Source of the DNA: Schizochytrium sp. TIO01
Taxonomy: Eukaryota; Sar; Bigyra; Thraustochytrida; Thraustochytriidae
Assembly (NCBI GenBank): GCA_004764695.1
Contig: SMSO01000036.1
Coordinates: 2,268,001 to 2,332,000 of the forward strand
DNA length: 64,000 nt
Direction: 5' to 3'
Below the pieces are notes generated by a model that did no database searches, was not told the origin of the DNA, and worked only from the letters and a program-made list of their open reading frames with translations. Each line of letters begins with the position of its first letter. Position 1 is the stretch's first letter. Below, piece by piece: positions 20,259 to 60,506 of this stretch. The translations under genes were made by a program, and so were the position numbers.

Positions 20259-22388
20259 CTAGTAGTAAGTTACAGCAAACTCGTACCCTTGAAGATTCTT
20301 GCTTTTGTCTGAGTGGAAATACACTATCATCTCTTGAACAAGCGGATCTAGTACAGATACCTTTTTGATCTTGCCCGCGTACGTGGCCCGAAGTACTGTC
20401 CCTATCTCGTCACTACGGAGAGAATCGAAAAAACTACTCGTTGCTGCACCGGTATCTTCTGCATCAACATCCCAAACCTCCAAAATGTCATGCTTCGCCT
20501 GAGTTGCGCCTCCAAGCATCTTGAACATTACTTTCTTGTCGCTTGGCGCACGGATCAGCCAACAGAGATCTGCATTGTTATCATACTTCTTTGCAGAATT
20601 TGTAGCTAGCGTAACCCACTCACCTGTTGAGTCCAGCTTCACCACCACATTTTCATCATCATGCGTACACTTAGTGGCCCACGATACCGAAGAAATTTCA
20701 GGACATTGACTAGGCTTTGTCAGACATTGACGACCTGCTTTGTCGAGAATTGTACCAGTTGGACAGCGGCAGTATGCTTGGCGAAAGTCGTCCTTTTCTT
20801 GCTCAGTATATTTTGACTGCGGATTCGGTAAATCGATGCAGACCCGGTTTGCTGATTTAGCACACTTGGTGGAGATCTTGTCAGGCTGGGTACAGTATGG
20901 CTCACAAGCAGGATACCAGCATTGTGCTAGAATCATGTTGTTCTCACAAGATGGGTACTGATCGACGTTAGACGGGATCGCAGGGGTTGTTGGAGCAGGC
21001 GTTGGCTTGGAGGGCTTAGATGTAGGGTGAGGAGTAGGCACTTTCGTGGGGAATCGAGTGGGACTTGGCGTTGGCTTTGGTGTTGGGTATTTTGTTGGCA
21101 CATTTGTCGGCCTGCTCGTTGGTTTGGATGTAGGCTTTGATGTAGGATACTTCGTAGGGGAGCTTGTTGGCTGGACAGGTTTGTAATTGTTGCACGCATC
21201 TTGTTTCTCCCTTAAGTCAACACAGCGGCGGGTTGGGTTCTTCTCAGATGCTACCTTGACCTCAGTAGGATGTCCTACATGAAGTTCACAAGTTCCAAGG
21301 CAAGTATCACTCGCGATCGAACAGTAGAACTCGTAGCTTGAGCAATAGGAGTCAGCGAGACAGGCCTGCAAACAATCATATTCTGTAATTGACTCTTTTT
21401 GCGAATACTGGCCATCGTAGAGAAGGTCGTCATCAGTATAATAAGCAGAAGTAGAAGCCTTGGGGTTATTAAAGAGGCAATAGCCCTTGGGAGCCATGAG
21501 GTGAAGGCAGGTTTGAGAGGCAGTACGCTGAGGCACCTCGTACATACAAAATGGGAATTGTTGGAATCCAATTTTTTTGTCGTCATGAAGTGAATTCTTT
21601 GCAACGACCGTGATTTTCCCAGAGTCGGTCAGAAGTAGAGGATAGTTCACAAAGCAATGGCGTTTTTGAAAGCGTCGTTTTCTCCAACCATTCTGATACT
21701 TATATGCGGTAATAAACGAGTATGAGTATTCTCCATCGTCATATGTGTATCCATTGTAGTACGTACGAAGTTCTCCTTCATAGTCGTCGTCATAAGACGT
21801 ATACTTAGGCTGAGCGAATTGTTTAGAGTAGAACTCGAGGTCATAGTGGGAGTCATATGTGGTATAAGATGAAGAATAATCCTCATTAACTTTGCACTTG
21901 GGGCCAAGATAAACATCATCAAAAATTTGAGTAAATGCTTTGGCAGTGAGTGTTCGATGGGACGTTGGCGCAATAAGCTTTTTAACAGGCCCCAAAGAAT
22001 ACTTGTGAGGTGCCCACCCAATGTAGGCATAACTGAGCTTCTCGCCTTTTAAAGCTCTTTGCAGTGCTCCAAGCTGGTCGGTGTTTTCGATGAGAGCAGC
22101 TTTCATCATAGAGTGACGATAGCGGCGCTCACAGAATGTGGTTGGGGTGTATAGGTCGGTGTACGTACTCTCATAGCAATCGTTATACGTGCATCCCTTG
22201 CCGAATTCCTTGCTCAGATAAAACTGGCGTTTGAAGCTGATTTTGTTTTTTCTTGTAGCCCTTCCAACACAGTAACCATTGTTGAAATAGTAGCCTGAAA
22301 TACATCGCGTGATGTCATCTCCCAGAACTAAAGTGAATATACACAGAAGGCACAAGAGAGCCGTAGACATGGTCATAGTAGGCGTCAT
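20259..22388 (-). CDS. Paralog A: secreted CTLD-like / PAN / TIL / CUB protein
   Basis: 709 residues from the ATG at 22388; ATGs at codons 5 and 7 would also keep the signal peptide (about 1-23, ending LVLG). In order: a Cys-framed N-terminal domain at about 29-281 (C29...C40, C86, YIGW at 122-125, C165, C245, PFC281) with long-form C-type-lectin-like spacing; a Tyr/Asp-rich variable loop of 79 residues between C165 and C245; a PAN/Apple-like domain at about 294-399 (CLQACLADSYCSSYEF); a Pro-Thr linker at about 406-470; a 10-Cys TIL-like domain at 481-562; and a CUB-like domain at 573-709. There is no transmembrane segment or GPI signal, so it is likely secreted. An extra Cys pair (66 and 71) is shared only with B. 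The role is unknown; adhesion, matrix or recognition are possible. Confidence 0.85.
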   Translation of the reverse strand: MTPTMTMSTALLCLLCIFTLVLGDDITRCISGYYFNNGYCVGRATRKNKISFKRQFYLSKEFGKGCTYNDCYESTYTDLYTPTTFCERRYRHSMMKAALIENTDQLGALQRALKGEKLSYAYIGWAPHKYSLGPVKKLIAPTSHRTLTAKAFTQIFDDVYLGPKCKVNEDYSSSYTTYDSHYDLEFYSKQFAQPKYTSYDDDYEGELRTYYNGYTYDDGEYSYSFITAYKYQNGWRKRRFQKRHCFVNYPLLLTDSGKITVVAKNSLHDDKKIGFQQFPFCMYEVPQRTASQTCLHLMAPKGYCLFNNPKASTSAYYTDDDLLYDGQYSQKESITEYDCLQACLADSYCSSYEFYCSIASDTCLGTCELHVGHPTEVKVASEKNPTRRCVDLREKQDACNNYKPVQPTSSPTKYPTSKPTSKPTSRPTNVPTKYPTPKPTPSPTRFPTKVPTPHPTSKPSKPTPAPTTPAIPSNVDQYPSCENNMILAQCWYPACEPYCTQPDKISTKCAKSANRVCIDLPNPQSKYTEQEKDDFRQAYCRCPTGTILDKAGRQCLTKPSQCPEISSVSWATKCTHDDENVVVKLDSTGEWVTLATNSAKKYDNNADLCWLIRAPSDKKVMFKMLGGATQAKHDILEVWDVDAEDTGAATSSFFDSLRSDEIGTVLRATYAGKIKKVSVLDPLVQEMIVYFHSDKSKNLQGYEFAVTYY

Positions 22389-22399
22389 CCTACTTGCAT
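22385..22399 (-). promoter_or_regulatory. Four-codon uORF overlapping the start codon of A
   Basis: An ATG at 22399-22397 opens a four-codon frame whose TGA overlaps the main ATG (ATGA). The same arrangement precedes paralog B at 25423-25409. It could lower initiation or allow reinitiation; it could also be chance kept by the recent duplication. Confidence 0.35.
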
Positions 22400-23285
22400 C
22401 AGAATATCCAACAACCAGAAGATTGGGGTTTGCTTTGCTAGAGGTTCCCTCTTTACGACTTTACCCTTGCTACTTATGTTCTATGGCTAAATCTATAGTC
22501 AATTAGCCATCAACGAGCTTACATGCACGACACACATTGGCAGGCCATGCACTCGAGTGATCTCACATGTAGAAACTCACTACAAATATCTCTAGTAGAT
22601 TTCAGTCTTGGCTGGCTGAGAAATGTTACGTTTCTTCCTGTTCATTTTTCATATGATCATATTCGTGCGTAGGCCTACTATGCATGTTCTAATCAATTTA
22701 AAAGATCGATAGGAATATTTTGTAAATGCTCGGGCTGCATCGGCCCTGAGAAGTGCATTATTTATTAGATACTGGTACTACGGATACTGCCAACGATGTT
22801 TGACTTTTAAATCCTATGGACACTATGGAAAACACTTGTATTTTTGAAAGCAGTCAGTCTGGGTTGCAGTTTAAAATTCTAGATGAAAACATGTGTCAAG
22901 ATCAGGCATGCTGGACTAGCTCACCAGCAACCGCAATGAGCTCATTAAGAACGAAGAATCATTTAGGGCAGGGTGAAGGAACTAATCAATTTCCAAATAT
23001 GTACGTCATTAATCGGTACTTCCAATTATATTTCCGAGAACCATTAAGATTTGGGAGCGTAACATCAAGTGCGTACCTTGCAGTACTAGGACTGTATTGT
23101 TAATAAACAATTTAATATTTCTTCAATGAAAGTTTGTTTTCTTTTTCCTCATAACGTAATGAACAAATGAGAAACACCACAACTACTCATATCGCTGTGA
23201 ATAACACGAGGCAAAATATTAGTCTAAAAAATTGAGTATGTCCCTTATTATCTCCTTAAGACTTGTGCGAATCCACAAAACCAAA
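22400..23285. other. 5' flank of A and 3' flank of B
   Basis: AT-rich spacer of the A/B tandem unit. The part to about 23085 is repeated upstream of B (25424-26130) and presumably carries the promoter. No gene or obvious TATA box is recognised. Confidence 0.5.
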
Positions 23286-25412: not shown

Positions 25413-25423
25413 CCTACTTGCAT

Positions 25424-27298
25424 CAGAATATCCCACAACCAGAAGATTGGGGTTTGCTTTGCTAGGGGCTCCCTCTTTAAGACTTTACCCATGTTACTTA
25501 TGTTCTATGGCTAAATCTATATAGTCGATTAGGCATCAACGAGCTTACATGCACGACACACATTGGCAGGCCATGCATTCGAGTGCTCTCACATGTAGAA
25601 ACTCACTACAATTATCTCTAGTAGATTTCAGTCTTGGCTGGCTGAGAAATGTTACGTTTCTTCCTGTTCATTTTTCATATGATCATATTCGTGCGTAGGC
25701 CTACTATGCATGTTCTAATCAAAGTAAAAGATCGATAGGAATATTTTCTGAATGCTCGGGCTGGATCCGCCGTGGGAAGTGCATTATTTGTCAAATTCTG
25801 GTACTACGGATACTGCCAACGATGTTTGACTTTTATATCCTAAGGACCATATGTTATCTTCATATGGAAAACACTTGTATTTCTGAAAGCAGTCAGTCTG
25901 GGTTGCAGTTTAAAATTCGAACGAGGTAGATGAAAACATGTGTCAAGATTAGACATGCTGAACGAACTCACCAGCAACCGCAATGAGCTCATTAAGAACG
26001 AAGAATCATTTAGGGCAGGATACAGGAACTAATCAATTTCCAAACATGAACGTCATTAATCGGTACTTCCAATTATATTTCCGAGAACCATTAAGATTTG
26101 GGAGCGTAACATCAAGTGCATACCGTGAGCATTAGAATGTTCATTGGCCTATGTATCTTTCTATCTTTCTTCATTGAAGCTCGGATTGATTATCCGCAAA
26201 CATAGGTATGAAAGCAGCCATAGGATTCAATAGCTTCGCCATTTGCCCTGCAGTAGACAGAAAGCTAGAAATCTGGGTGTTTTTAGAAACAATTGTAGAA
26301 AAAAAAGGAAACTGCTCAAAACAAAGTTCTTAAGCATACATCAGAGTTGCATTTTAGCAATGCTCAGCTGCGGCTATATTTCACTTTAAATTCTCACCCT
26401 TTTTTCTTTAATTTGATGGCCATTACGCACAACAAAAGAGTATATATACTGCCTGCTTTCAAACTTTTTTTTCATAGATGTGTCGTACTTCAACTACCGT
26501 GGAAGAAAATTACTGTTCATTTTAAAATTTTAAAAAAGAAAATGAAAAGAAAAGAAAAGAAGATAATATTAAATTGAAAGTCTTGAGAATCCTTATTTTT
26601 GTTTCTTTGTTGATCATCCCCGTACTACTTAAAACTCGGGAAAGGTTCTAAACAGGGGAAACCTCAAAAGCCTTGGTAGGACTTAATTGACCATTGAGAA
26701 CCAGGGAAGAGCGATCTTGACTAAAAGAATATAAAAACTATAGTCATCAAAAGATAATTTTCCTTTATGAACACATTTTTCATCACACCGAACTTTTGTA
26801 AATGGCAAATTGTTTGTTGAATTCCCGTACATGTAAAGAATACCAAGCATGTTTTAGGAATAAATTACGAATCAGAGCGTGTTCAGATTTTGGTGTTAAA
26901 GCGCCATGCATGCAGAGAGTCGCTCATTCACAATGCTTGAATTAGCATAACCCGCAAAGTGATTCTATATAATACTAGTGTTGAGCTTGGTAGTTTGATG
27001 GATTGATGGATTGATAGATTGAGGAAAATATTTGGTTTTAGGGCAGTTGTATCTACCCACTCGCTGAGAACTACCTATAGTTCAGGAATGGCTTCACTTA
27101 TTAAGAAACTGAAAATGCTTGAATTTAACTAAAATGGATATAGCGCAGCAGAGAGGAGGAGAACAGGACAAGCGTCCTTCACTGCTTACCTCAAGTGGAT
27201 ATCTGAAGAGTATGCTATATTTGGAAAATAAAATAAATGTTACAATAAAACAAAAACATCATGTTTTTTATTATTTTAAAAAATCGCATAAACTTTTC
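25424..27298. other. 5' flank of B and spacer to C
   Basis: To about 26130 this copies the 5' flank of A. The rest is AT-rich and unique, with short A- and T-rich runs and a GGATTGAT repeat near 26998-27022. No gene supported. Confidence 0.5.
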
Positions 27299-29359
27299 TT
27301 AGGTGTACATGACCTTCAAATCAAATCCTGACTTGGCCTTTTTGGAGTCTGTGCGGAAGTAAAGAATCACCTGCTGGGAATATGCAGTGAGCGTGCTCTT
27401 CTTAACTTTGCCTGAGTACTCCTCAACCAGCATAGTGTCAACCTCACCTGCCTGAAGTGAGGCGATATCAGCTAGAGAAGGTGACAGCACCTCATACACT
27501 TCTAGAATATCGACGTTCTTCTGAGTCTCGCCATTTACATACAGGGTAACAACACCATCCTCCGGGGCTTGGATGATCCAGCACTGGTCCATATTCGCGG
27601 CATATGTTTTGCTGTCTGGGTTTGTACCAAGCTCTACCCATTCTCCCTGAGTGTTGAGCTCCACAATCTGGTTTGCATCCGTATCATTGCATTTGTTGGA
27701 CCAAGAGTAAGATGCCAACTTTGGACAGCTGCTTGCTTTGGATACACATGTCCAACTTGCTTCATCAAGGATGTAGTTCTTGTCGCAGCGACAGTATGTC
27801 TTCAAGAACTCGGACTCCTCTTCGTACGTGTAGGTATCTTGAGGATCTGGGAGCGTGATGCACACTCGATTTGCTTTCTTAAAGCAAGAAGTGGAGACTA
27901 CCGAGTCGCTACACTTGGGCTCGCAATCCTCATAGTAGCACTGTGCTAAAATCATCGCATTTGGACACGCAGGATATTCGTCAACGTTGGATGGGATGGT
28001 ACTCAGCGTTGGTGCTGGGGTCGGCTTTGTCGGCCTTGATGTAGGCAAGGGAGTTGGGTTCTTAGTAGGCCTTTCTGTAGGGAAATTCGTTGGTCTTTGG
28101 GTGGGCTCTGGCGTAGGATAATTTGTTGGTTTAAGGGTCGGTGCCATGGTTGGGGATTTGGTAGGCTTGGTGGGTTCCATTGTCGGTGCTAGAGTCGGCT
28201 TAGAAGTTGACGGTGTTGTTGAATCCTCGATCGGACTAGGCGTGGGACTTTCCGTTGGGCTCTCTGAAGTTTCAGCAAGAACGTGATTGTTGCAGTTAGA
28301 GGAGACACGCAAATCAATACAGTACCTTACTGCATAAGTTTTATTAGTCTTTGTTTTCACAGGGTGGTCAGCGAACAGGCGACATAGTCCTGAAGACGTA
28401 GAATCTCCGAAGAAGTTATATGAGAAACAGTAACTACTAGCTTTACATTTGCTCAGACAGGAATCTTCACTAATTCCAGTATAATCCAAATAATCACCTT
28501 CGTAGGTTGTATCGGTAGCGTCTGCTGGATTTTCAAACAAGCATGAACCATAGCCAAGAAGATGGGAGCAAGTTTCTGTAGAAGTACTACGAGGGCTGAC
28601 GGGATACATGCATACAGGAGTTCTCTCTGCAGCATATTCTGACTCGGAGTATGCATTGTCAAGCGCGACGACAGAAATGGCACCACTTGACTTCATCATA
28701 ATTGGATAGTTGTAGAAGCAAGCGCGTAGCTCAGAACCATAAGGCTCATCATCATATGAGGAGGACTTATAGCTGCTGTAGGAGTCTGAGGTTGAAGAGG
28801 TGTACGTGAGAAAGTCGCTAGAGTATCCGTCAGAGACGTAAGAGCCTGACCATGGAGCATAGCCCGTACCATAATCACTCTTTTTACAGCTGCTTCCCCA
28901 ATAGATAGTTACACCAAGGTTATTAGCCAGCTTGGAGGAGAGAAGGACTTTGTCGCTTGTAGGGTCGACGACCTGCTTCACGGGACCAATTTGGTATTTT
29001 CTAGAAGGTTGCCAACCCGTATAAACATCAACACCAGCGGCCACAACGGCCTTCTTCATAGCCTTTACTTGCGCATTGTTACGAAGCACAGCTGGGATGA
29101 TGGCGCGACTGTCGGGGTACTTTCTGGAGCAATATGTTGTGCTCTTATTCTTGGAATCGTAGAATTGGCTTTTGTAGCTAATTTTCTTGTCCAAATCAGC
29201 GAATCCTACACAATATCCTCCATTACTGCTGGTCGACGCAAAGTAGTAGTTCTCCATACAATATGAAGAAGTAGAGCTTCCATGGCTTAGGGTCACCATT
29301 TGGCAGGTTGCCACAATCGCGAGCAGGGCTGCCGCAGAGGCAGGCATTTCCACCTTCAT
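27299..29359 (-). CDS. Paralog C: secreted CTLD-like / PAN / TIL / CUB protein
   Basis: 686 residues from the ATG at 29359, signal peptide about 1-28 (ending LSHG). N-terminal domain about 34-250: C34, C50, YC77, YTGW113-116, C158, C214, PVC250. Its variable loop is the shortest in the family, 55 residues, rich in Ser/Tyr/Asp. PAN-like domain about 264-356 (CLSKCKASSYCFSYNF), Pro-Thr linker about 367-452 with Met/Glu-containing units, TIL-like domain 465-546, CUB-like domain about 555-686. The N-terminal half is clearly divergent from D, but the TIL-like domain and the first part of the CUB-like domain are nearly identical to D, which indicates recent exchange between the two genes. It is more distant from A/B and E-H. 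Confidence 0.85.
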   Translation of the reverse strand: MKVEMPASAAALLAIVATCQMVTLSHGSSTSSYCMENYYFASTSSNGGYCVGFADLDKKISYKSQFYDSKNKSTTYCSRKYPDSRAIIPAVLRNNAQVKAMKKAVVAAGVDVYTGWQPSRKYQIGPVKQVVDPTSDKVLLSSKLANNLGVTIYWGSSCKKSDYGTGYAPWSGSYVSDGYSSDFLTYTSSTSDSYSSYKSSSYDDEPYGSELRACFYNYPIMMKSSGAISVVALDNAYSESEYAAERTPVCMYPVSPRSTSTETCSHLLGYGSCLFENPADATDTTYEGDYLDYTGISEDSCLSKCKASSYCFSYNFFGDSTSSGLCRLFADHPVKTKTNKTYAVRYCIDLRVSSNCNNHVLAETSESPTESPTPSPIEDSTTPSTSKPTLAPTMEPTKPTKSPTMAPTLKPTNYPTPEPTQRPTNFPTERPTKNPTPLPTSRPTKPTPAPTLSTIPSNVDEYPACPNAMILAQCYYEDCEPKCSDSVVSTSCFKKANRVCITLPDPQDTYTYEEESEFLKTYCRCDKNYILDEASWTCVSKASSCPKLASYSWSNKCNDTDANQIVELNTQGEWVELGTNPDSKTYAANMDQCWIIQAPEDGVVTLYVNGETQKNVDILEVYEVLSPSLADIASLQAGEVDTMLVEEYSGKVKKSTLTAYSQQVILYFRTDSKKAKSGFDLKVMYT

Positions 29360-42222: not shown

Positions 42223-42248
42223 CAATTGGATTCATGATTTGTACTTCA

Positions 42249-44318: not shown

Positions 44319-44761
44319 GAAGAGAATATATTATTTGTTTTAATTTTTAGTTGTTTTTAACTTTCAATTGTTTTAACACGGACTTGGCGAATGAAGAATA
44401 CCCTGAAATCAGCAGATTTGGGCATGGCTGAAACCCCTATATGACATGGAGCAGGTTAATCAATTGGCCTCACCGAGTTTGCCCCGAGAAAAGACGTTTG
44501 TCGGTGTCTTCGTGGTTGAAAAGTCAAACAGAGACCTCGGGTGCGCTGCTTAAGATGGACAGGTAGCTGGCACATAGGATATACTACAGCATGGTTCTTA
44601 CATGCGCCTGTAAAGCCTTTATATGCCGATGGAATCGTTGTGGTTTGTGCTCACGTTGTGAATGCGAAAGAAGGGACAGATGAACAGCGCAAGGTCCACA
44701 AGGTCGGTAAACCTAAGAGAGTGAGGAAGATGAATGTTCAACGTCAAGCCTTCGGGAAGGC

Positions 44762-45046
44762 ATGCAAGTCGATTCGATGGCAATAGAAATTTCTGACGCT
44801 CCACTGCTGCGAAAAGCTCGCAGACTTATTCGTGCTAAGCCTGCTGTTGTTGGCACGCCTGGCAAAGATGCAAATAGTCCTTTGGATGGAGATGCTGGGT
44901 TAGAACCAAACCTTTCAGAAAACACTAATGAAAGCGCCGAAAATATTGATGACCGAAGATCTAATGCAAAGGAACCAGGTTCTGAGGACATGCACCTTCG
45001 ACAAACCCAAACTAAAACTAAGGATGCGTCACCCGCCAGCCCATAG
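44762..45046 (+). CDS. Small hypothetical ORF in the duplicated spacer (copy 1)
   Basis: 94 residues from an ATG, hydrophilic, with a basic start (LLRKARRLIRAKP) and an acidic, Asn/Glu/Asp-rich middle. The copy at 49607-49891 differs by two residues, but the surrounding DNA is equally conserved, so selection is not shown. After its stop the same frame stays open to about 45290 and contains SYGLESFSTVQQSAIKSVF, which resembles the Q motif of DEAD-box helicases. It may be a relic of a larger gene. Low confidence as a functional gene. Confidence 0.22.
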   Translation: MQVDSMAIEISDAPLLRKARRLIRAKPAVVGTPGKDANSPLDGDAGLEPNLSENTNESAENIDDRRSNAKEPGSEDMHLRQTQTKTKDASPASP

Positions 45047-46399
45047 GAAATTGAGTTTGCCAACATTTGTCAATTCAACCCCCAAATTACAATAGTCGAT
45101 GATCTATTTACTGCTTTCCAGCTAACTCTGTACATTGGTACACTGATCTCACGATTTGCAGAACGAAGCTCATATGGACTTGAATCGTTCTCAACTGTGC
45201 AGCAATCTGCAATAAAGAGTGTCTTCACAACAATAGTCACCAATGTCCCGCGCATCATTCACCCGTGCAATCTCTTTTGTCGATGTTATTGTTATCTCTA
45301 ATATCGCTATTATAGTAATAGATTCTTGTTTTTTGTTTGTTTGATGTTGTATTTTGTTATCGTTGGTTGACTAAAATTGCCTCTAGACTATCTTCGCACC
45401 ATTACAACTTTGAATTAATTGTGATGAATGTTAGTGTCATGAAATAATAAGAGAGTTCTAGACTCAGTTGAGCAAGTCCAACTATCTAAAGAAGGCTTAC
45501 GTGATGAATACCTTCATCTCTATTATCTTCTGACATGAGGCTTGCCGCTCTTTGAAACTGGAAACTGCATTGTAGCCCCGTAGCCTGGAGTTTTTTATTC
45601 AGAGTATATCTTCTTTAAAAAAATCAAAAATAGCACTACTGGTATGCATACTTTATTAGCACTGAAAACTGGTTTTGCCTTAGCTAGTCAGATTATTCAC
45701 TTCATTCGTAATCTGTATATTTTTATTACTTGGATTTAAATATTAATTAAAATCAATATTGTTATTTATGAACGATTTAATTCAGAAAAGCCTTTTGCAA
45801 CTCGGATTGAAAGTACCTTATCGGCTTGGCAGTAGACTGAACATTATATTACCTTCAAGTGCTCAACCACCTGAAAGAATTCAGATGTCTTCCGGCAACC
45901 ACGATTTACAATATTCTCCCTGATATTTCTTGAATGGAGACAATAATTATTTGATGAACATTAAAAGGACTATTACCACCACCACCAACCCATTTATTCT
46001 TACTGATAATCAAAATAAATCACACAATGGAACCGCCCGGACACCTGAGGGAATGTAAGTTTTGGGCTTCGCTTGATAAGTTTAGTTGTAGGCAGCGGTA
46101 TTCACTATTTATGTACGATTAAACTGATTTTTTATTCAGAGTCTGAAATCAAGCCAGCTTGTATTGGCACTAACAACTGATTAATCATTGCAAATCTCAT
46201 TGCCAGTCATAGGCGTCTGCAAAATTTGAGCACAACATGAGGATAAGACCACTCCAAATGCCTCTATTATCTAGTTAAAGAGCTATATTGCTCTTTTCTG
46301 AGAGCCATGTTATCGCACATGAAAATGCACAAAGTCCATCAACGCGTGCACACTTTAAAATATTTAAAAACTCAAAACTTATTCTTAATAAAATGTTTG

Positions 46400-46440
<41 letters not shown>

Positions 46441-47019
46441 GAGGCAGACACAAGTTTGCGCGTTTCTTCTTCTTTATTTAATATATATATTTTACACAAC
46501 TCCGCATCTATCCCAATACAAATAAATCACTGGCCAACCATAGATGAAGACTGTAGTGTCATTGTCACGGTACTCTAAACGACCAAACGTAAGTCGGAAA
46601 AAAGTTGAGTGTTAAATACGACGAGGCTATGCATCGGCTACCATAGCAGCAGGATATGGATTCCTATTCAAAATAGCCTAGGTGACGATGAAACTCTAAT
46701 CAGTAGTCATATAAGTATTCAGAAATAAGTGTCCCTACAAAATGAGCACAACAATAGCCCGATTCTTCCTGATCATGACTGACCAGTCCTAAAATATTAA
46801 AATAAGGCAACTTTTCTATTTTTTTTAATTGAATGTTTTTAATTAATTAGCACCATTAATATATCTACAGATCGGCAATATAGAGAACGTAGTATTGCCT
46901 TATTAAGTTTTAATTCTTAGATAACGCTTTATTCAAGATATTTTTATTTATTTATTTATTGAATATCTATTTGCAGTTCCTTAATAGACTACAACTTAGA
47001 AGTTTGGTATTACAAACCT

Positions 47020-47072
47020 GAATTATCTGGAAAGAGAAGCTATAATTCAGACAGCAAAACCGAAACAAGGAC
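47020..47072 (+). promoter_or_regulatory. Conserved upstream block of G
   Basis: Same GAATTATCTGG...CCGAAACAAGGAC block as before F, ending 24 bases before the ATG of G. Confidence 0.4.
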
Positions 47073-47096
47073 AGTACCATTTAGATTTGTACTTCA

Positions 47097-49163
47097 ATGA
47101 GTTGGAGGGTACCTTCTCATAATTTCGTCTCCATGTTTGCTCTATTGCTATTACTTTTGCAATGCTTCTCACTTACAATAGCCAGCAGCACCAGTACACG
47201 ATGTGTTGAGGGGTTTTACTTCAATGGAGGCGTCTGCATTGGTGCAGTCTCAACTACAAAGAGTCGCTACAAATGGCAATTCTATCCTTCTGATAAAACA
47301 CATACTACTTACTGCGAACGAAAATTTCCCAATACCTTAGTTCAACCTGCTGTACTCACGAATAAGGCAGAGGTCAAAGCCATGACACTTGCCCTAAAAG
47401 CCTCAAAAGCAGCGTCGGCATTTACTGGATGGCAACCCATTGATTACACTATTGGTCCAGTAAAAAATATCATCAATCCAACTACTCAACAAAGAAAAAC
47501 GTCGAAGCAACTCACGAGTATGCTTGGTACTGTAAATTTTGGCCCCGAGTGCGACCAATCCAACTACTATGAATGGAGAAAGCCTTGGGATGACTACACA
47601 ACTGAACCAAACGAAGGCCATTATGAGACTGACTTTTACCTGCAGTACACAAACGAGGATTACTCTACGATCAAACCATATGCATCTGTATATTCTAAAG
47701 ATCAATCTGCTGATCATTATAGTAGTCCATACGGCTCCGGTTATTACTCCTTATTTCGAGGATGCCAATCAAACAATCAACTTCTCATTATGGCAGATGG
47801 AACCATCACTGCCCACGTTGCTGGTGCCCCAAACCTCAGGCGGCGTATTTTGAAACGACGAATCCCATTCTGCAAATACCCAGTACCTGAACGTGAAACG
47901 ACCGCCCTATGCCCTAACCTCATGGCTCCGCATGGCTATTGTAGATTCGTCAAGCCCACCGACGCAACAAATACTGACTACCATGGCGACTTTGTCAAAT
48001 ACGACGATGTATCTGAGCTTGAGTGCTTCAACAATTGTCTTCAAGATGCATACTGCCGCTCGTATGAGTTTTACTCTACCAACGCCGTGCCAGATGGTGC
48101 CAAAGGTGTCTGTGAGCTCCATGCCAATAACCCCGTCAAAGTTGATGTGCCTTCCAACAATAAATATCCTGTGAGACTTTGTGTTGACTTGCGAACTACC
48201 TCTACATGCAATCAACATATCGTGGCTTCAGCTACTCCCCAGCCCACGCCAAAGCCAACCCCGCGTCCCACCAAAGTGCCCACCAAAAAACCTACTCCTC
48301 AGCCCACGACAGGACGTCCCACCAAACGCCCGACACCACAACCTACGAACAAACCAACACGTGAGCCAACTTCCAAGCCAACCAAAACGCCAACCAACGA
48401 GCCCACACCAAGGCCTACAAAACCTACTCCACAACCAACACAGCCTGTTATCCCACTTAATGTCGATGCGTACCCAGAATGTCCAAACAACTTGATACTT
48501 GCGCAATGCTGGTATCCGAGCTGCTCACCGCAGTGCGGACAGAACAAGATCACTACGCGGTGTCCCAAGAATGCCAACCGCATTTGCATTGACCTTCCTG
48601 ATCCCAAGTCGTCGTACTCTGAAGAAGAAGAAGCTGCATTTCTTGGCACGTATTGTCGCTGTCCTCAGGGTTGGATTCACGACCGTGCATCCCAAAAGTG
48701 CGTCAAGAAAGCGAAGGAATGTCCTCCTGCCACTCTTGATTGGGCTTCCAAATGTTTGGACCCTGAAGCCAACAATATCGTTGAGCTGAGTCAGATTGGA
48801 GAGTGGGTCACTCTTGATACGAACAATGGGACAGACAAGCAGTACGAGAATAACGAAGATGCATGCTGGCTGGTGCGTGCTCCGAAAGGCAAGACTGTAA
48901 TGTTTAAGGTGATGGGTGGCGCGACACAAGCAAACAAGGATATCCTGGAGGTGTGGGATGTTCTAAGCACAGTGTCAAGCACGAAAAACTTTTTCTCTAA
49001 TTTGCGTGGTGGTGAATACGAGACTGTACTCCGCGCGACATATGATGGTAAGGTGAAGACTCCGAATACACTTGACCCGTTGTCACGCGACATGGTGATT
49101 CATTTTCATTCTGATGATCGCAAAGTTAGCTCTGGGCTCGATTTTAGAGTTACATACTACTAA
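47097..49163 (+). CDS. Paralog G: secreted CTLD-like / PAN / TIL / CUB protein
   Basis: 688 residues from the only nearby in-frame ATG (47097), which fixes the MSWR start for E-G. Signal peptide about 1-29 (ending LTIA). N-terminal domain 36-259 with the same cysteine framework; the loop is 70 residues. Its first 45 loop residues are almost the same as in E ([15 protein letters not shown] onwards), although E lies 8 kb away on the other strand, whereas neighbouring F differs. The rest of the loop ([17 protein letters not shown]) is private. From PFC259 to the stop the protein is nearly the same as F, with a Ser instead of Pro in the Pro-Thr linker and KTPNTL in the CUB-like domain. Presumed secreted; role unknown. 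Confidence 0.85.
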
Positions 49164-49606
49164 GAAGAGAATATATTATTTGTTTTAATTTTTAGTTGTT
49201 TTTAACTTTCAATTGTTTTAAGACGGACTTGGCGAATGAAGAATACCCTGAAATCAGCAGATTTGGGCATGGCTGAAACCCCTATATGACATGGAGCAGG
49301 TTAATCGATTGGCCTCACCGAGTTTGCCCCGAGAAAAGACGTTTGTCGGTGTCTTCGTGGTTGAAAAGTCAAACAGAGACCTCGGGCGCGCTGCTTAAGA
49401 TGGACAGGTAGCTGGCACATAGGATATACTACAGCATGGTTCTTACAAGCGCCTGTAAAGCCTTTATATGCCGATGGAATCGTTGTGGTTTGTGCTCACG
49501 TTGTGAGTGTGAAAGAAGGGACAGATGAACAGCGCAAGGTCCACAAGGTCGGTAAACCTAAGAGAGTGAGGAAGATGAATGTTCAACGTCAAGCCTTCGG
49601 GAAGGC

Positions 49607-49891
49607 ATGCAAGTCGATTCGATGGCAATAGAAATTTCTGACGCTCCACTGCTGCGAAAAGCTCGCAGACTTATTCGTGCTAAGCCTGCTGTTGTTGGCA
49701 CGCCTGGCAAAGATGCAAATAGTCCCTTGGATGGAGATGCTGGGTTAGAACCAAACCTTTCAGAAAATACTAATGAAAACGCCGAAAATATTGATGACCG
49801 AAGATCTAATGCAAAGGAACCAGGTTCTGAGGACATGCACCTTCGACAAACCCAAACTAAAACTAAGGATGCGTCACCCGCCATCCCATAG
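49607..49891 (+). CDS. Small hypothetical ORF in the duplicated spacer (copy 2)
   Basis: 94 residues, the duplicate of 44762-45046 with Ser-to-Asn and Ser-to-Ile changes. The Q-motif-like phrase is also present after the stop (49892-50130). Same caution: conservation is explained by the recent duplication. Confidence 0.22.
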   Translation: MQVDSMAIEISDAPLLRKARRLIRAKPAVVGTPGKDANSPLDGDAGLEPNLSENTNENAENIDDRRSNAKEPGSEDMHLRQTQTKTKDASPAIP

Positions 49892-51850
49892 GAAATTGAG
49901 TTTGCCAACATTTGTCAATTCAACCCCCCAATTACAATAGTCGATGATCTATTTACTGCTTTCCAGCTAACTCTGTACATTGGTACACTGATCTCACGAT
50001 TTGCAGAACGGAGCTCATATGGACTTGAATCGTTCTCAACTGTGCAGCAATCTGCAATAAAGAGTGTCTTCACAACAATAGTCACCAATGCCGCGCGCAT
50101 CATTCACCCATCCAATCTCTTTTGTCGATGTTATTGTTATCTCTAATATCGCTATTATAGTAACAGATTCTTGTTTTTTGTTTGTTTGTTGTTGTATTTT
50201 CTCATCGTTGGTTGACTAAAATTGCCTCTAGACTATCTTCGCACCATTACAACTTTGAATTCATTGTGATGAATGTTAGTGTCATGAAATAAGAAGAGAG
50301 TTCTAGACTCAGTTGAGCAAGTCCAACTATCTAAAGAAGGCTTACGTGATGAATACCTTCATCTCTATTATCTTCTGACATGAGGCTTGCCGCTCTTTGA
50401 AACTGGAAACTGCATTGTAGCCCCGTAGCCTGGAGTTTTTATTCAGACTATATCTTCTTTAAAAAAATAAAAAATAGCACTACTGGTATGCATACTTTAT
50501 TAGCACTGAAAACTTGCTTTTGCTTAAGCTAGTCAGATTATTCACTTCATTCGTAATCTGTATATTTTTATTACTTGGATTTAAATTTTAATTAAAATCA
50601 ATATTGTTATTTATGAACGAGTTAATTCAGAAAAGCCTTTTACAACTCGGATTGAAAGTACCTTATCGGCTTGGCAGTAGACTGAACATTATATTGCCTT
50701 CAAGTGCTCAACCACCTGAAAGAATTCAGATGTCTTCCGGCAACCACGATTTACAATATTCTCCCTGATATTTCTTGAATGGAGACAATAATTATTTGAT
50801 GAACATTAAAAGGACTATTACCACCACCAACACATTTATTCTTACTGATAATCAAAATCGAAATCACACAATGGAACTGCCCGGACACCTGAGGGAATGT
50901 AAGTTTTGGGCTTCGCTTTATAAATTTAGTTGTAGGCAGCGGTATTCACTATTTATGGACGATTAAACTGATTTTTTATTCAGAGTCTGAAATCAAGCCA
51001 GCTTGTATTGGCACTAACAACTGATTAATCATTGCAAATCTCATTGCCAGTCATAGGCGTCTGCAAAATTTGAGCACAACATGAGGATAGGATCACTCCA
51101 AATGCCTCTATTATCTAGTTAAAGAGCTATATTGCTCTTTTCTGAGAGCCATTTTATCGCACATGAAAATGCACAAAGTCCATCAACGCATGCACACTTT
51201 AAAATATTTAAAAACTCAAAACTTATTCTTAATAAAATGTTTTGAAAAAAGATGAAAAAAAAAAAGAAAGAGAAAGAGGCAGACACAAGTTTGCGCGTTT
51301 CTTCTTCTTTATTTAATTACATATATATATATTTACACAACTCCGCATCTTTCCCAATACAAATAAATCACTGGCCAACAATAGATGAAGACTGTAGTAT
51401 CATTGTCACGGGATTCTAAACGACCACACCTAAGTTGGAGTGTTCAATACGACGAGGCTAGGCATCTGCTATCCTAGCAACAGAATATGGATTCCTATTC
51501 AAAATAGCCTAGGTGAGAATGGAACTCCAGTCAGTAGTTGTATAAGTATTCAGAAGTGAAGATTGGTGTCCCTACAAAATGTGCAAAAAAAAGCCCGATT
51601 CTTCCTGATCATGACTGACCAGTCCTAAAATATTTATTATTATTTTTTTAATTAAAAAAAAAGGCAACCATTTATTTTTAATTAAACACGCCATAAGAAA
51701 CATTCTCCAAATCCGCAACATAGTGAACTTAGTATTACTTTTTAAGTTGAATTTTTTAATAAACGCTATATTCATATTTATTTTTTTAATTAAATATCTA
51801 TTTCCAGTGTTTCGATAAACTGCAACATAGAAGTTTGGTATTACAAACCT

Positions 51851-51900
51851 GAATTATCTGAAAAGAGAAGCAATAATCAGACAGTAAAACCGAAATAAGG
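51851..51900 (+). promoter_or_regulatory. Conserved upstream block of H
   Basis: Slightly changed copy (CCGAAATAAGG) of the block before F and G. It lies 64 bases before the ATG used here because H has lost the upstream start. Confidence 0.35.
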
Positions 51901-51964
51901 AGAATTGGGATTCATGACTTGTACTTCAATAGGTTAGAGATCATCTTTCTTAAGCCTTGGAACC

Positions 51965-53989
51965 ATGTTTTCTCTCTTCCTGTTGCTTTTACAATGGTTC
52001 TCACTTGCAACAGCCAGCAGCACCAGCACACGATGTGTTGAGGGGTTTTACTTTAATGAAGGCGTCTGCATTGGTGCAGTCTCAACTACAAAGAGTCGCT
52101 ACAAATGGCAATTCTATCCTTCTGATAAAATGCATACTACTTACTGCGAACGCAAATTCCCCAACACATCAGTTCAACCTGCTATACTCACAAATAAGGC
52201 AGAGGTCAAAGCCATGACACTTGCCCTAAAAGCCTCAAAAGCAGCGTCGGCATTTACTGGATGGCAACCCATTGATTACACTATTGGTCCAGTAAAAAAT
52301 GTCATCAATCCAACCACCAAAGAGACAAAAACAGCAAATCAACTCAAGGGTATGCTTGGTCCTGTTGATTTTGGCCCCAAGTGCGAAAGATCTCATTACT
52401 ATGATTGGGCGAAGCCATGGGGTGGTGGTGCACCATATGGAGATCATTACAACGGTGATTACACGACAGACTTCAGTATCTACACGGAGGAGGGTTATTC
52501 CACAGTTCGCCCTTACGAGTCATCTGAACGACCTGAAGGCTATTCAGGCTATTCTCGTGACTACGACTACTCCGTGTATCGAAATTGTCAATCAAACAAC
52601 AATTTACTAATCATGGCAGATGGAACCATCACTGCAAAAGCTGACATTAAAGGCCCAAGCCTCAGGCGGCGTATTTTGAAACGACGAATCCCATTCTGCA
52701 AATACCCAGTACCTGAACGTGAAACGACCGCCCTATGCCCTAACCTCATGGCTCCACATGGCTATTGTAGATTCGTCAAGCCCACCGACGCAACAAATAC
52801 TGACTACCATGGCGACTTTGTCAAATACGACGATGTATCTGAGCTTGAGTGCTTCAACAATTGTCTTCAAGATGCATACTGCCGCTCGTATGAGTTTTAC
52901 TCTACCAACGCCGTGCCAGATGGTGCCAAAGGTGTCTGTGAGCTCCATGCCAATAACCCCGTCAAAGTTGATGTGCCTTCCAACAATAAATACCCTGTGA
53001 GACTTTGTGTTGATTTGCGAACTACCTCTACATGCAATCAACATATCGTGGCTTCAGCTACTCCCCAGCCCACGCCAAAGCCAACCCCGCGTCCCACCAA
53101 AGTACCGACCAAAAAACCTACTCCTCAGCCCACGACAGGACGTCCCACCAAACGCCCAACACCACAACCTACGAACAAACCAACACGTGAGCCAACTCCC
53201 AAGCCAACCAAAACGCCAACCAACGAGCCCACACCAAGGCCTACAAAACCTACTCCACAACCAACACAGCCTGTTATCCCACTTAATGTCGATGCATACC
53301 CAGAATGTCCAAACAACTTGATACTTGCGCAATGCTGGTATCCGAGCTGCTCACCGCAGTGCGGACAGAACAAGATCACTACGCGGTGTCCCAAGAATGC
53401 CAACCGCATTTGCATTGACCTTCCTGATCCCAAGTCGTCGTACTCTGAAGAAGAAGAAGCTGCATTTCTTGGCACGTATTGTCGCTGTCCTCAGGGTTGG
53501 ATTCACGACCGTGCATCCCAGAAATGCGTCAAGAAAGCGAAGGAATGTCCTCCTGCCACTCTTGATTGGGCTTCCAAATGTTTGGACCCTGAAGCCAACA
53601 ATATCGTTGAGCTGAGTCAGATTGGAGAGTGGGTCACTCTTGATACGAACAATGGGACAGACAAGCAGTACGAGAATAACGAAGATGCATGCTGGCTGGT
53701 GCGTGCTCCGGAAGGCAAGACTGTAATGTTTAAGATGGTGGGTGGCGCGACACAAGCAAACAAGGATATCCTGGAGGCGTGGGATGTTCTAAGCACAGTG
53801 TCAAGCACGAAAAACTTTTTCTCTAATTTGCGTGGTGGTGAATACGAGACTGTACTTCGCGCGACATATGATGGTAAGGTGAAGAGTCCGAATACACTTG
53901 ACCCGTTGTCACGCGACATGGTGATTCATTTTCATTCTGATGATCTCAAAGTTAGCTCCGGGCTCGATTTTAGAGTTACATACTACTAA
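51965..53989 (+). CDS. Paralog H: secreted CTLD-like / PAN / TIL / CUB protein with retracted start
   Basis: 674 residues from the ATG at 51965 ([10 protein letters not shown]). The MSWR start of E-G is lost: the aligned ATG is ATA at 51929, and two codons later Trp is replaced by TAG (51935-51937), so an in-frame ATG at 51914 makes only a seven-codon uORF. The shortened signal peptide (about 1-17, ending LATA) still looks functional. N-terminal domain 24-245: C24, C140, C208, PFC245; loop 67 residues, Gly/Tyr-rich ([16 protein letters not shown]). PAN-like, Pro-Thr, TIL-like and CUB-like domains match E-G. The CUB-like domain is a mosaic of E-type and F/G-type variants. Homology to F and G stops immediately after TAA. 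Confidence 0.82.
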
Positions 53990-55611
53990 CAATGTTCTAT
54001 CTTTCTTCTTTTCTTTTTTTTTTCTTGGGTTTCTGTCTATGCTTCTGGTTTTTCGTTTTTCAAAGGTTTCTAAACTCACGGTTTCCCTAATTGCCAGGAA
54101 AAGTAAGGTTTGAGTATAATTTTCGGAAATTCAAGATTGTTATTTTAGGCACGTTAATTGTCCACTGGATAACCCAGGAAGCCTTCAAGCTCTTCTAATA
54201 GCATTCATAAAGGTTTACCACAAAGATGCAAAATACACGCGGGATCTCCTAAGCTAGAGGTATAGGCATTTTCTTGAAAGAACCCATGAAGATAGTATTT
54301 ACAATAGAATAGAACTAGACAACCAGAAATACCTGGTTTAAAGACAAGATCCAAAAGTGTGCATAGCCCTTTCCTAGAATCAATTGTGGAGTCTGAACTG
54401 ATGATTAAAGAGACTGACCCCTTCAATTGTGTCTTAAACATTTCAAGTATGTCTTAGTCTTCTAATTACAACATAAAGCAGTATGCTTTGGAATTAGATT
54501 CCAAGGTTAGCGGATCTCTAACTCATAATCCACAGACTATCATGCCTTCTAAAATCCCCTCAGAGCTTCTATCTAGCCTCTTGCCTTCACCTTCATAATC
54601 ACCCTCAATTCATCTTTCAGCTTGCAATGAGCATTCTCATGACTCTGAACTACCAAGTTTGTTGAGCTGTAGAAGCACCGCTAAGCTCCTCATATATGCG
54701 ACTCTTCTCATCAGGGTTAATTTCCCATTGTCTCTCCAGTGGGCACTGTTAGTACTTTTGGTTGGTACATGATGCTGTATAGAGTCTCAAAGGAAAGCCC
54801 CAAAATTCTTTCTTCCTGTTAGATTTTGCAATTAGCAGGTTTGAATTATAATTCCCGCTGGCGCTTCAAAATGGCAGAAATCATCAAGAGCGACCTGTCT
54901 TCCCTTGAACCCGAACAAATTGTGCTATATCTAAGAAAAGTCTCGCCACGAAGTCTGTCCTGAGAAAGGGCAAATCTGCATTATCTATTAGTAAACAGAA
55001 GAACCCGTACGGATAAAGTAGTGCATTCCATTCTGCAATAATAAAAGGCCTTCTCTATAAACTTGCATAAAAATAAATGCATCGCGAAGGACCCTAAGAC
55101 GAATCAAATCCTGAAATTCGAGAATGGTAATCTTAAAATGTTCCGCGATAAGTATGATGAGACGAAAGCACGTACGCATCTGCCTGGGTCTCTGAAGTAC
55201 CACGATCTGTGCGCTATTCATGAATAGATGATTTTCCAAAGCTCTCTATTCTGATCGGACCACAAGTGAGGAGCAAGCCGCCGAAAGGAACTCGGCATCC
55301 GCTCTTCTCGTGCAGAACGTGATAACCTAGATTTTCGAGGTTGGGTCACGCAATTGAAACAGAAGGAATGGGAAAGCTGCATTCCTTCTCCTGATGGTTT
55401 GGCCTCATCAGGAGAAGTTTATCGACCAAGTAACCGATGCTGTGTGAGTGTGTGCAAATGAATCGCCGGGGTCATGTTTAGTTCTGCTATAAGGTCCACT
55501 GAGAAGATAAGCATCCGACGCGCACCATTGCACCCTTGCCTTGGTCCGACAGTACGGCCATTTCAGACCGTGTAGAACTCTGATGGCCGAGCCGTTAAGT
55601 GGGACACAGGG
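53990..55611. other. Spacer after H, no intact gene
   Basis: Unique sequence from the stop codon of H onward, beginning with a TTCTTTT-rich run. Short frames only. The right half (from about 54870) may be the eroded N-terminal part of the Fanzor/TnpB-like relic that follows, but I see no clear motif there. Confidence 0.45.
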
Positions 55612-56471: not shown

Positions 56472-57434
56472 ATGGCCCGCGGGACGCCTGTATCCGCTGC
56501 GAAGTCTTCGAAGAAGCGTAAGACGCCCGCCAAGAGCTCTGGTGCGGCTGATGATGAAGAACTGGTGGATGTGAAGAAGGCCAAAACCCCCGTGAGCAAG
56601 AAATCCGCCACGGCCAAGAAAACCCCTGTTAAGAAAAAGGTTGTGGATCCGCTCGACGCCCTTCTTGCGAAACATGATTTTCTGGAACGCGTCTCCACAG
56701 AGTTTGGTGACAAAATTAAGTGCAATGTGACTGACCACGAAATGCCGCTCAAGGCGGAGGTGGTGGAGAAGCACCTCGAATCCAAGAGGTTCAAGCAGGC
56801 CCGCGAGAACTGGTGGTCCGAAGATCTCGCAGAGAAGTACGCCCCAGAAATTGTCCAGCACAAGCACAACGAGAAGAAGCTCTACTGTACCATTACAGAA
56901 CAGTCCCTCAACAAGATCCCTGCTGAGGTCGAGGCGCACGTGAACGGCAAGCGCTTCAAAAACCTGAAGAAGGTCAAGGAGGCCAAGGAGGCCAAGGCAG
57001 CAGCAGTGGAGGCAAAACGCAAGGAGAAGATCGCCAAGCGTATTGCTGCTCGCAAGGCAGCAGCAGCAGCCAAGGCTGGGACTACAGAGGAGAGTGCAGA
57101 GGAAGAGCAGAAGCCTAAAGCCCACGCCGTCGATGACTTCTTGGACCAATTGGAAGACTCCGATGAGGAGATGGACCTCGATGAGTCCGAGGAAGAAGAT
57201 GCTGAGGAAGACGAGGAGGATGATGAGGAGGAAGAGGAACCCACTCCACCTCCAAAGAAGAAGCGTCAAGCTACTTCAAAGAACGCTAGCGACAACAAGA
57301 CTAAGAAGAGCAACGCCAAACCTGCAGCCACCCCCAGCAAGAAGAAGCAGGCTACCAAGGAGACCAAACCCCAGTCCGCGAAGAAGACAACACCCAAAGG
57401 TAGCGCTAAGAAGAAGATTAATAAGAAGAAGTAA
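56472..57434 (+). CDS. SURF2-like (Surfeit locus protein 2 family) nuclear protein
   Basis: 320 residues from an ATG in good context (tcagaATGGCC). Residues 1-57 are Lys/Ala/Pro-rich. About 62-175 match the SURF2 fold pattern: IKCNVTDHEMP (82-92), KRFKQARENWW (105-115), PEIVQHKHNEKKLYCTIT (125-142) and the second His/Lys element LNKIPAEVEAHVNGKRF (146-162), i.e. the paired Cys-x2-Thr-x-His and Leu-x-Cys-x2-Thr elements. A Lys/Ala-rich helix (163-205), an acidic Asp/Glu run (about 213-240) and a basic Lys/Pro/Ser tail ending KKKINKKK follow. The charged tails suggest nucleolar or chromatin localisation. In animals SURF2 is a poorly understood, nucleolus- and ribosome-biogenesis-linked protein. 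It seems unrelated to its secreted neighbours. Confidence 0.75.
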   Translation: MARGTPVSAAKSSKKRKTPAKSSGAADDEELVDVKKAKTPVSKKSATAKKTPVKKKVVDPLDALLAKHDFLERVSTEFGDKIKCNVTDHEMPLKAEVVEKHLESKRFKQARENWWSEDLAEKYAPEIVQHKHNEKKLYCTITEQSLNKIPAEVEAHVNGKRFKNLKKVKEAKEAKAAAVEAKRKEKIAKRIAARKAAAAAKAGTTEESAEEEQKPKAHAVDDFLDQLEDSDEEMDLDESEEEDAEEDEEDDEEEEEPTPPPKKKRQATSKNASDNKTKKSNAKPAATPSKKKQATKETKPQSAKKTTPKGSAKKKINKKK

Positions 57435-59054: not shown

Positions 59055-60506
59055 ATGTCGGCTATCAAGACAACAATGCGCTTGTTATGGCTGCAGGTTC
59101 TTCTCTGTATGTCTCATCTTCATGGCGCAAAAGCAAGCCCGCAAAATTACTGTGTTGATAATTATTACTTCAACGATGGCTATTGTGTTGGACCTGCAAG
59201 CATGGAACTTATCTCTTTCAAGAGTCAGTTCTACCCATTGAGGCGAAAAGGAGCTCTGCATAATTCTACATTTTGCACACGCGCATACCCTCGTTCATCT
59301 GTAATTGAACCTGCTGTTGTTAGAAACAAAGCACAAGTGGAGGCTTTGAGACTTGCTTTGCGTGGTGAAAAGATTCGCATGGCCTATGTTGGATGGAAAC
59401 CATTTAACTACACTCTCGGACCTGTCACCAATGTAATTGATCTCACAACCAAGACAGAAGTAAGTATTCCAGAGCTGCGGAAAATGATTGGTAGTGTGTT
59501 TGCAGGACGCAAATGTGAATCTGGAGACAAAGAATATACCTCAACAAGCTACGACACTGAATCCTACTCCTCCAGCTCAAATGGATATACCTCTAGCTAT
59601 ACCAGCTCAAATGAATATACCTCTAGCTATACCAGCTCTAAAGACGACGATGAATACACCAGCTCTAAAGACGACGACGAATACACTAGCTCTAAAGATG
59701 GTGATTATACATCTAGTTCCATTGATGATGATAGTATTACCGACATGAATACACCTGCTGATCTCGGATATTCGTCTGAGACAATCGACTATTCTACGGA
59801 GTATTCCTCGTACACCACGACAGGCATGAATGTGTCACACCCAGACTATGATCCAAGTGACGACTATAACACTGAGTATTCATCCGGTACTTTTCTTTAC
59901 TCGCTTTATGCTTCAGAGGACAATGCATGTTTTTACAATTGGCCGCTCATTATGAAACGCTCTGGAATGGTCTCTGTGCTAGACCTTGCCCGAGTCAAGC
60001 GCGAATTTACGAAGTCGCAGGAGCTCGTTCCATTTTGCATGTACGAAATTGAAGAGCGCCCAGAGTCTACCGAGTGCGCCAACCTTGTCACTATGGACGG
60101 TGTATGCCAATATGCCAACCCCACAGACGACGCGATAATTGGCGATGGTCAGTTCCAAGTGATGGATAGTGTGGTTGAGTTTAGCTGCTTCCAGGCTTGC
60201 CGTGATGATAGCTTTTGTCTATCGTACCAATTTACTACAGAAATTGGGCAAGTTCTTGGTACGTGTAGGATGTATGCTGCTCATCCAGTGCGCACTGTGG
60301 AAAGCGAAAGTTCTAATGAAACAAACGTGTGCGTTGATTTACGTAATTCTTCCACAGAATCCTGCAATGATTACATGCCTAGTCTCCCAGAACTACCCGC
60401 CGAAACGCACAATACTGCTCCCTCAGATAATATTGTCCTGAAAACAAGTATGACTCCAACTGCTGCTCCAACTTCCCTCCCCACTCCGTTGCTTCGCAGG
60501 GTTTGA
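59055..60506 (+). CDS. Paralog I: truncated member with expanded Tyr/Ser loop, lacks TIL and CUB
   Basis: 483 residues from the ATG at 59055; the GTG at 59040 is rejected, and an ATG at 59076 is an alternative start. Signal peptide to about residue 28 (LHGAKA). N-terminal domain about 33-328: C33, C44, FC74, YVGW, C154, C292, PFC328. Its loop is the longest in the family, 137 residues, and contains in-frame tandem repeats: two of a 10-residue YTSSYTSSNE type and about three of a 9-residue TSSKDDDEY type. PAN-like domain about 339-443 (CFQACRDDSFCLSYQF). The protein stops after only three Pro-Thr units (PTAAPTSLPTPLLRRV), and no TIL- or CUB-coding sequence follows in the next kilobase. It is either a shorter functional form or an old 3' truncation. 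The long open frame favours function. Confidence 0.75.
   Translation: MSAIKTTMRLLWLQVLLCMSHLHGAKASPQNYCVDNYYFNDGYCVGPASMELISFKSQFYPLRRKGALHNSTFCTRAYPRSSVIEPAVVRNKAQVEALRLALRGEKIRMAYVGWKPFNYTLGPVTNVIDLTTKTEVSIPELRKMIGSVFAGRKCESGDKEYTSTSYDTESYSSSSNGYTSSYTSSNEYTSSYTSSKDDDEYTSSKDDDEYTSSKDGDYTSSSIDDDSITDMNTPADLGYSSETIDYSTEYSSYTTTGMNVSHPDYDPSDDYNTEYSSGTFLYSLYASEDNACFYNWPLIMKRSGMVSVLDLARVKREFTKSQELVPFCMYEIEERPESTECANLVTMDGVCQYANPTDDAIIGDGQFQVMDSVVEFSCFQACRDDSFCLSYQFTTEIGQVLGTCRMYAAHPVRTVESESSNETNVCVDLRNSSTESCNDYMPSLPELPAETHNTAPSDNIVLKTSMTPTAAPTSLPTPLLRRV
59582..59720 (+). repeat. In-frame minisatellites in the loop of paralog I
   Basis: Two 30-base units (59582-59641) are followed by about two and a half 27-base units (from about 59631 to 59705). 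Both periods are multiples of three, so length changes keep the frame. Confidence 0.85.

Follow-up and report, generated by a model that had tools for sequence, protein, structure and literature searches.

Why do neighboring gene copies carry different sequences in a single loop of an otherwise conserved protein? This question is raised by a 64-kb stretch of the thraustochytrid Schizochytrium sp. TIO01 (contig SMSO01000036.1, positions 2,268,001 to 2,332,000; G000:C35:2268001-2332000; hereafter, the window), whose genome assembly has 37 contigs totalling 64.06 Mb. The window holds nine related genes, A to I, each a single open reading frame (ORF) of 483-709 amino acids (aa) without internal stops, with A-E on the minus strand and F-I on the plus strand. 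When the genome was searched with H and I, three further members (J, K, and L) emerged outside the window, giving 12 in total. We lean, with moderate confidence, towards reading these genes as an extracellular lectin-fold family whose loops are diversified by exchange and selected for binding a changing partner.

Results

A tyrosine-rich loop in apparently secreted proteins

A preliminary description of this DNA, made from its sequence, reported that two cysteines in each of the nine proteins enclose a loop of 79, 78, 55, 59, 66, 70, 70, 67, and 137 residues (A to I, respectively). We recovered exactly these lengths. The reported dominance of Tyr, Ser, Asp, Gly, and Thr extends to all 12 genes, in which these residues make up 50-75% of the loop versus 28-37% of the rest. 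Tyr alone accounts for 11-23% of loop residues. The base composition of each loop predicts 3.5-5.2%, and the Tyr bias is hence beyond chance. Two broader claims stood in part. Most loops are copy-specific, but those of A and B are nearly identical and those of E and G are alike over their first 47 codons. The remainder of the protein is conserved within E-H and within A/B (A and B are 96.6% identical over 2973 columns, 691 bp upstream included), but C and D are close in the C-terminal domain alone, and whole-protein identity to H across subfamilies is 33-45%.

The domain order is a hydrophobic N-terminus, the loop-bearing N-terminal domain (N-domain), a PAN-like domain, a PT linker, and a CUB-like C-terminal domain (C-domain); gene I, whose frame closes shortly past the PAN region, has neither the long linker nor the C-domain. 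This architecture rests partly on sub-threshold Pfam scores, with domain borders placed by eye. Among 15 aligned members, PAN_1 and PT each matched 11 and CUB matched nine at E<=0.1 (best 1.4e-5 for PAN_1 and 7.5e-6 for CUB). Scanned singly, six of seven members matched PAN_1 at E<=1, with F alone passing the curated cut-off, and CUB fell below the cut-off in C, E, F, and H. The PAN part, searched as a profile against the PDB, had no match at E<=1. A hydrophobic stretch begins within the first 19 residues of all 12 proteins (mean hydropathy 1.19-2.32), and beyond residue 60 every 19-residue stretch has a hydropathy of at most 1.07, which suggests that the proteins are secreted without a membrane anchor; signal peptides were called from hydropathy alone. 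We note that this genome makes wide use of PAN domains: PAN_1 matched at least 83 times at E<=0.01, versus no matches in 14 control prokaryotes. One 1681-aa open frame (G000:C32:201244-204390) has PAN_1 matches together with many PT-repeat matches to the linker of the loop family.

The loop maps to the long-loop region of a predicted C-type-lectin-like fold

We compared AlphaFold models of the N-domains of C and H (predicted template modeling score [pTM] 0.74 and 0.69, respectively) with known folds. Both models have the overall fold and element order of C-type-lectin-like domains. The N-domain is thus modeled as a C-type-lectin-like fold in which the Tyr/Ser/Asp-rich segment forms the long-loop region, with the cysteine pair closing its base. 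In the models, the loop occupies the site where C-type lectin folds hold their ligand-binding long loop. A buried loop had been named as a concern in the preliminary description; as modeled, the C and H loops have no buried, confidently placed structure.

Animal C-type lectin-like domains (collectins, natural killer [NK]-cell receptors, and snake-venom C-type lectins) share the predicted fold, the element order, and a variable part between beta-2 and beta-3, and this fold also varies in animal immune and venom families. We take the cysteine placement of the loop family to resemble that of a long-form C-type lectin with an N-terminal hairpin. Unlike the animal domains, the family carries a 52-137-residue insertion closed by its own cysteine pair, has PAN-like, PT linker, and CUB-like partners, lacks the calcium-site motif set, and gave no match to Pfam Lectin_C (PF00059) in any of 12 members at E<=10.

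An island of divergence surrounds the loop

F, G, and H form a tandem duplication that includes intergenic DNA: by blastn, 42156-47000 matches 47007-51831, and 44405-49166 matches 49250-53992. Within these copies lies an island of divergence that peaks at the loop and extends into the promoter, with nearly identical flanks. Moving towards the gene from upstream, G and H differ by 2.0% beyond 800 bp, 6.8% at 400-800 bp, 18.6% at 150-400 bp, and 16.1% at 0-150 bp. The difference is 31.1% in the signal peptide, 7.9% before the loop, 43.2% plus 27 gap columns in the loop, and 12.2% after it, and then 1.0% in PAN, 1.8% in the linker, and 1.5% in the C-domain. F and G differ by 46.9% in the loop, 1.3% in PAN, 0.7% in the C-domain, 1.2% in the first 500 bp downstream, and 5.2% further downstream. 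As a separate observation, promoter-proximal and signal-peptide DNA of G and H is diverged (46500-47190 and 51300-52020), and the copies may differ in regulation.

Synonymous divergence (dS) follows the same course. For the six pairs among E, F, G, and H, dS is 0-0.064 in PAN, 0.016-0.050 in the linker, and 0.019-0.106 in the C-domain, and rises to 0.18-0.70 before the loop and 0.18-0.41 after it. Within the loop, E/G has a dS of 0.23, three other pairs reach 1.70-2.12, and the last two are saturated; these values are rough because the alignments of the F, H, and E/G loops are uncertain. Amino acid change alone is insufficient to explain this pattern, as synonymous sites would then resemble those of the flanks, and they do not. 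Either old loops persisted while the DNA flanking them was homogenized, or segments of the loop were imported. Elsewhere, C and D have a dS of 0.13 in the C-domain and of ~0.9-1.1 in other non-loop parts, and K and L are uniformly old (loop 56% identical, C-domain 74%).

A ratio of nonsynonymous to synonymous divergence (dN/dS) above 1 in the loop was not supported. E/G, the sole array pair with a well-aligned loop, gave a loop ratio of 0.60, compared with 0.09 for the preceding domain; in the other five E-H pairs the loop ratio is of little use because synonymous sites are at or near saturation. We rejected simple positive selection acting on point mutations of recent duplicates, since the synonymous sites of the loop are equally diverged.

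The main rival to selection for variety is a neutral process, in which a low-complexity, weakly constrained, disordered loop, liable to indels and repeat slippage, blocks gene conversion once copies differ there, so that the flanks are homogenized while the surroundings of the loop diverge. The spill of raised synonymous divergence beside the loop and into the G/H promoter and signal peptide is consistent with this process, as are an E/G loop ratio close to relaxed constraint and the absence of confident structure in the modeled loops. We nevertheless consider it somewhat unlikely: Tyr richness, the cysteine pair, and a minimum length are kept in all 12 paralogues despite sequence turnover, and the loop lies just where the fold binds its ligands.

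Segment exchange and repeat slippage as candidate sources of loop change

Sites at which E-H split two against two form a mosaic, which argues for segment exchange among these genes. At positions 354-599, 36 of 39 such sites pair E with G. The 11 sites before position 354 pair E with F, G, and H seven, three, and one times, respectively, and the 17 sites after position 599 do so seven, three, and seven times. Synonymous differences between E and G amount to 1.5/26 in the first 47 loop codons, versus 18/85 before the loop and 5.5/13 in the last 19 codons; these small numbers suggest a recent tract between the two inverted copies.

Repeats of 27-30 bp occur within the loops of I and L, those of I being minisatellite-like (59572-59638 and 59631-59698), and point to slippage as a putative second source of loop change. 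Such short tandem repeats also suit the neutral process. Segment exchange, repeat slippage, and homogenized flanks fit the data better than a simple dN/dS above 1.

Loops differ between strains at some loci

Relatives of the family are present in Hondaea fermentalgiana (P0002 and P0003) and in MMETSP and other transcript or read assemblies. Among 51 matches in the search for relatives, P0001-P0005 alone span 63-100% of the query; the remaining listed coverages are at most 19% and mostly reflect the PT linker. A protein search with part of C returned no matches and missed even the relatives found with H, showing that this search was insensitive.

We compared four members with counterparts from other data, leaving signal peptides out of the tests. 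L and its counterpart P0052 differ at 24/69 loop residues plus 8 gaps, versus 10/483 elsewhere (p=2e-16), and all but one of the 31 N-domain differences that map onto positions of H lie between the GW and the second loop cysteine. F and P0001 differ at 8/70 loop residues plus 1 gap, versus 7/589 elsewhere (p=4e-5). P0001, from another strain, is the closest relative of F, but we do not claim strict orthology, because it is a transcript assembly and might represent a different copy or be chimeric in part; its signal peptide is H-like, with 6/18 differences and 17 gap positions relative to F, and its loop differences from F were, by eye, absent at those places in E, G, and H. The expectation that loops vary across strains therefore holds for two of four orthologue pairs (L and F), but the J and K loops are the same or one residue apart. 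The K and L counterparts (P0005 and P0052) probably come from one strain, in which K is unchanged and the L loop is rebuilt. Such a contrast between L and its neighbor K, where 1/77 loop residues and 0/476 others differ, is unexpected under a general slippage rate and thus tells against neutral change. In the Hondaea pair, P0002 and P0003 differ at 17/51 loop residues plus 6 gaps and at 20/237 residues of the C-domain.

Differences between strains that lie mostly within the loop, as at L and the F-like gene, would also be expected if polymorphic loops marked strain identity between cells or gametes. We regard such allorecognition as very improbable, given that J and K are monomorphic in a single comparison each and that loop-family genes have no known link to a fusion or mating phenotype.

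Searches for donors, retroelements, and viral carriage

Donor and template searches used four of the 12 loops (F, G, H, and L, the G search also reaching E), in an assembly that may be incomplete. In DNA searches of the assembly, the F, H, and L loops matched only themselves, and the G loop additionally matched E. The L loop of the other strain, searched as protein against the same genome, matched locus L only. Reverse transcriptase (RVT_1, PF00078) had at least two matches in the genome and none in the window. With no RVT_1 in the window and no template-like second copy of the four loops tried, a diversity-generating retroelement was ruled against, as was silent-donor antigenic variation in view of the missing donor cassettes for the F, G/E, H, and L loops. 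When viral_contigs were scanned once using the N-domain alignment, 33 pattern matches came up but none was confirmed, and viral origin or carriage was rejected.

The loop might alternatively be a surface decoy or antigen that evades a virus, parasite, or predator, with the protein's own job residing in the conserved domains. Differences between copies and between strains are centered on the loop, as escape would have it, and thraustochytrid viruses are known (PMC4512727). We find escape improbable: silent copies of the F, G/E, H, and L loops, as in programmed antigenic variation, were not found, and the C-type lectin fold normally binds through this same loop.

Genomic arrangement and neighboring genes

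The coordinates of the family are listed in Table 1. SURF2, which is unrelated to the family, lies between H and I at 56472-57434 on the plus strand (Pfam E 7.5e-30), and a SWEET/MtN3 sugar transporter with a very long Gln/Pro/Ser-rich tail adjoins gene A (17552-19723, plus strand). A segment upstream of A (22772-23079; -691 to -384) resembles one downstream of C (25738-26066), both on the minus strand, with 88% identity over 329 columns.

Table 1. Members of the loop family and the F-G-H duplication. Positions are those of the window unless a contig is given.
Feature	Position	Strand	Loop and modeled N-domain	Evidence
Gene A, 709 aa	20259-22388	-	loop 21657-21893	ORF, loop cysteines
Gene B, 708 aa	23286-25412	-	loop 24684-24917	ORF, cysteines
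Gene C, 686 aa	27299-29359	-	loop 28721-28885; N-domain 28589-29275	ORF, cysteines, AlphaFold, fold comparison
Gene D, 692 aa	32810-34888	-	loop 34211-34387	ORF, cysteines
Gene E, 690 aa	37244-39316	-	loop 38648-38845	ORF, cysteines
Gene F, 694 aa	42234-44318	+	loop 42705-42914	ORF, cysteines
Gene G, 688 aa	47097-49163	+	loop 47553-47762	ORF, cysteines
Gene H, 674 aa	51965-53989	+	loop 52385-52585; N-domain 52019-52720	ORF, cysteines, AlphaFold, fold comparisons
Gene I, 483 aa	59055-60506	+	loop 59517-59927 (137 residues)	ORF, cysteines
F-G-H tandem duplication, unit ~4.85 kb	42156-53992	+		blastn of units, per-region divergence
Gene J	C35:2609270-2611384			genome search
Gene K (tandem pair with L)	C6:1460047-1461840			genome search
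Gene L (tandem pair with K)	C6:1465558-1467279			genome search

Discussion

The lectin-like long loop, the apparent secretion, and the adhesive partner domains lead us to infer that the loop binds something. Most likely, a cysteine-closed, Tyr/Ser/Asp-rich loop on a lectin-like fold, accompanied by adhesive domains, binds a varied or changing partner. The preliminary description offered variable recognition, adhesion, self/non-self discrimination, or an antigenic coat as possible roles; the conserved scaffold and the loop that varies between most copies, on which that proposal was built, stand. Recognition is the best supported reading, although unproven.

Several results weigh against selection for loop variety on a lectin fold. 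First, some loops hardly vary: A and B have the same loop but for one residue and one indel (1/78 aligned codons), the K loop barely differs from that of P0005, and the J loop is identical to that of P0004 (0/124, versus 1/559 elsewhere). In the Hondaea pair, PAN differs at 25/93 residues, not far below the loop. Second, positive selection on loop amino acids is undemonstrated, as synonymous divergence is raised in the loop as well, and the island is wider than the loop, taking in the 400 bp of promoter-proximal DNA (16-19%) and the signal peptide (31%) of G and H. Third, the sequence methods tried joined the N-domain to C-type lectins in no case: its sequence had no match in the PDB at E<=10, and its profile reached 0.7% probability against the four Lectin_C stretches of this genome. 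Canonical calcium-dependent C-type lectins have EPN or QPD plus WND motifs for calcium and sugar. EPN was present in two of 12 members (E and G, inside the loop), and QPD and WND in none.

If selection for binding is nonetheless at work, it may operate as follows. Copies would swap segments by recombination or gene conversion, which would keep the 3' half and much of the intergenic DNA alike, while exchange, indels, and short-repeat slippage would alter the loops. Selection would favor differing loops of like chemistry because the loop binds a changing partner, such as a prey or substrate surface, a microbe, a virus, or other cells. The putative site of binding is the cell surface or the ectoplasmic net.

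Two known systems offer comparisons. According to one report, phages, bacteria, and archaea build extreme variation onto the C-type lectin fold, which is the scaffold for the hypervariable ligand site of diversity-generating retroelement proteins, including archaeal AvpA (PMC5006420). The loop family likewise puts its hypervariable site on a C-type lectin fold but, unlike those proteins, shows indels and repeat changes rather than substitution at fixed length. Retroelement variable proteins were not among the 50 matches listed in our fold comparisons, an absence that excludes nothing. The Sp185/333 immune genes of sea urchins occur in clusters with segmental duplications, short repeats, and repertoires that differ by individual (PMC5103432). 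The loop family too is clustered, with segmental duplications and short repeats, but Sp185/333 is an unrelated protein and the thraustochytrid variation concerns one loop on a lectin-like fold.

Among thraustochytrid proteins, A0A6S8AHQ2 of Aurantiochytrium limacinum is a settlement-induced candidate ectoplasmic-network protein that is thraustochytrid-restricted, predicted to be secreted, and matches an apple-domain micronemal adhesin (PMC12221091). We do not claim it as a family member; in view of the many PAN_1 matches in the present genome, it may well be another gene. We found no hypervariable or C-type-lectin proteins of thraustochytrids in the literature, within partial sources and with most subscription journals outside our scope.

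A more ambitious reading, which we offer tentatively and hold to be somewhat unlikely, is that these genes are a stramenopile germline repertoire of lectin-fold recognition proteins, with binding loops replaced or rebuilt between strains by recombination, serving recognition of prey, viruses, or strains. The repertoire would then be a eukaryotic equivalent, working without a retroelement, of the hypervariable lectin-fold proteins known from phages, bacteria, and archaea. Beyond the starting observation, what is new for the loop family is its predicted fold and the evidence from strains. If true, the family would be an independent protist case of strain-variable lectin-fold loops, with the variety made in a different way. 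It would also provide a gene set for asking how thraustochytrids, a group that produces oils industrially and decomposes matter in the ocean, recognize surfaces, prey, viruses, and each other.

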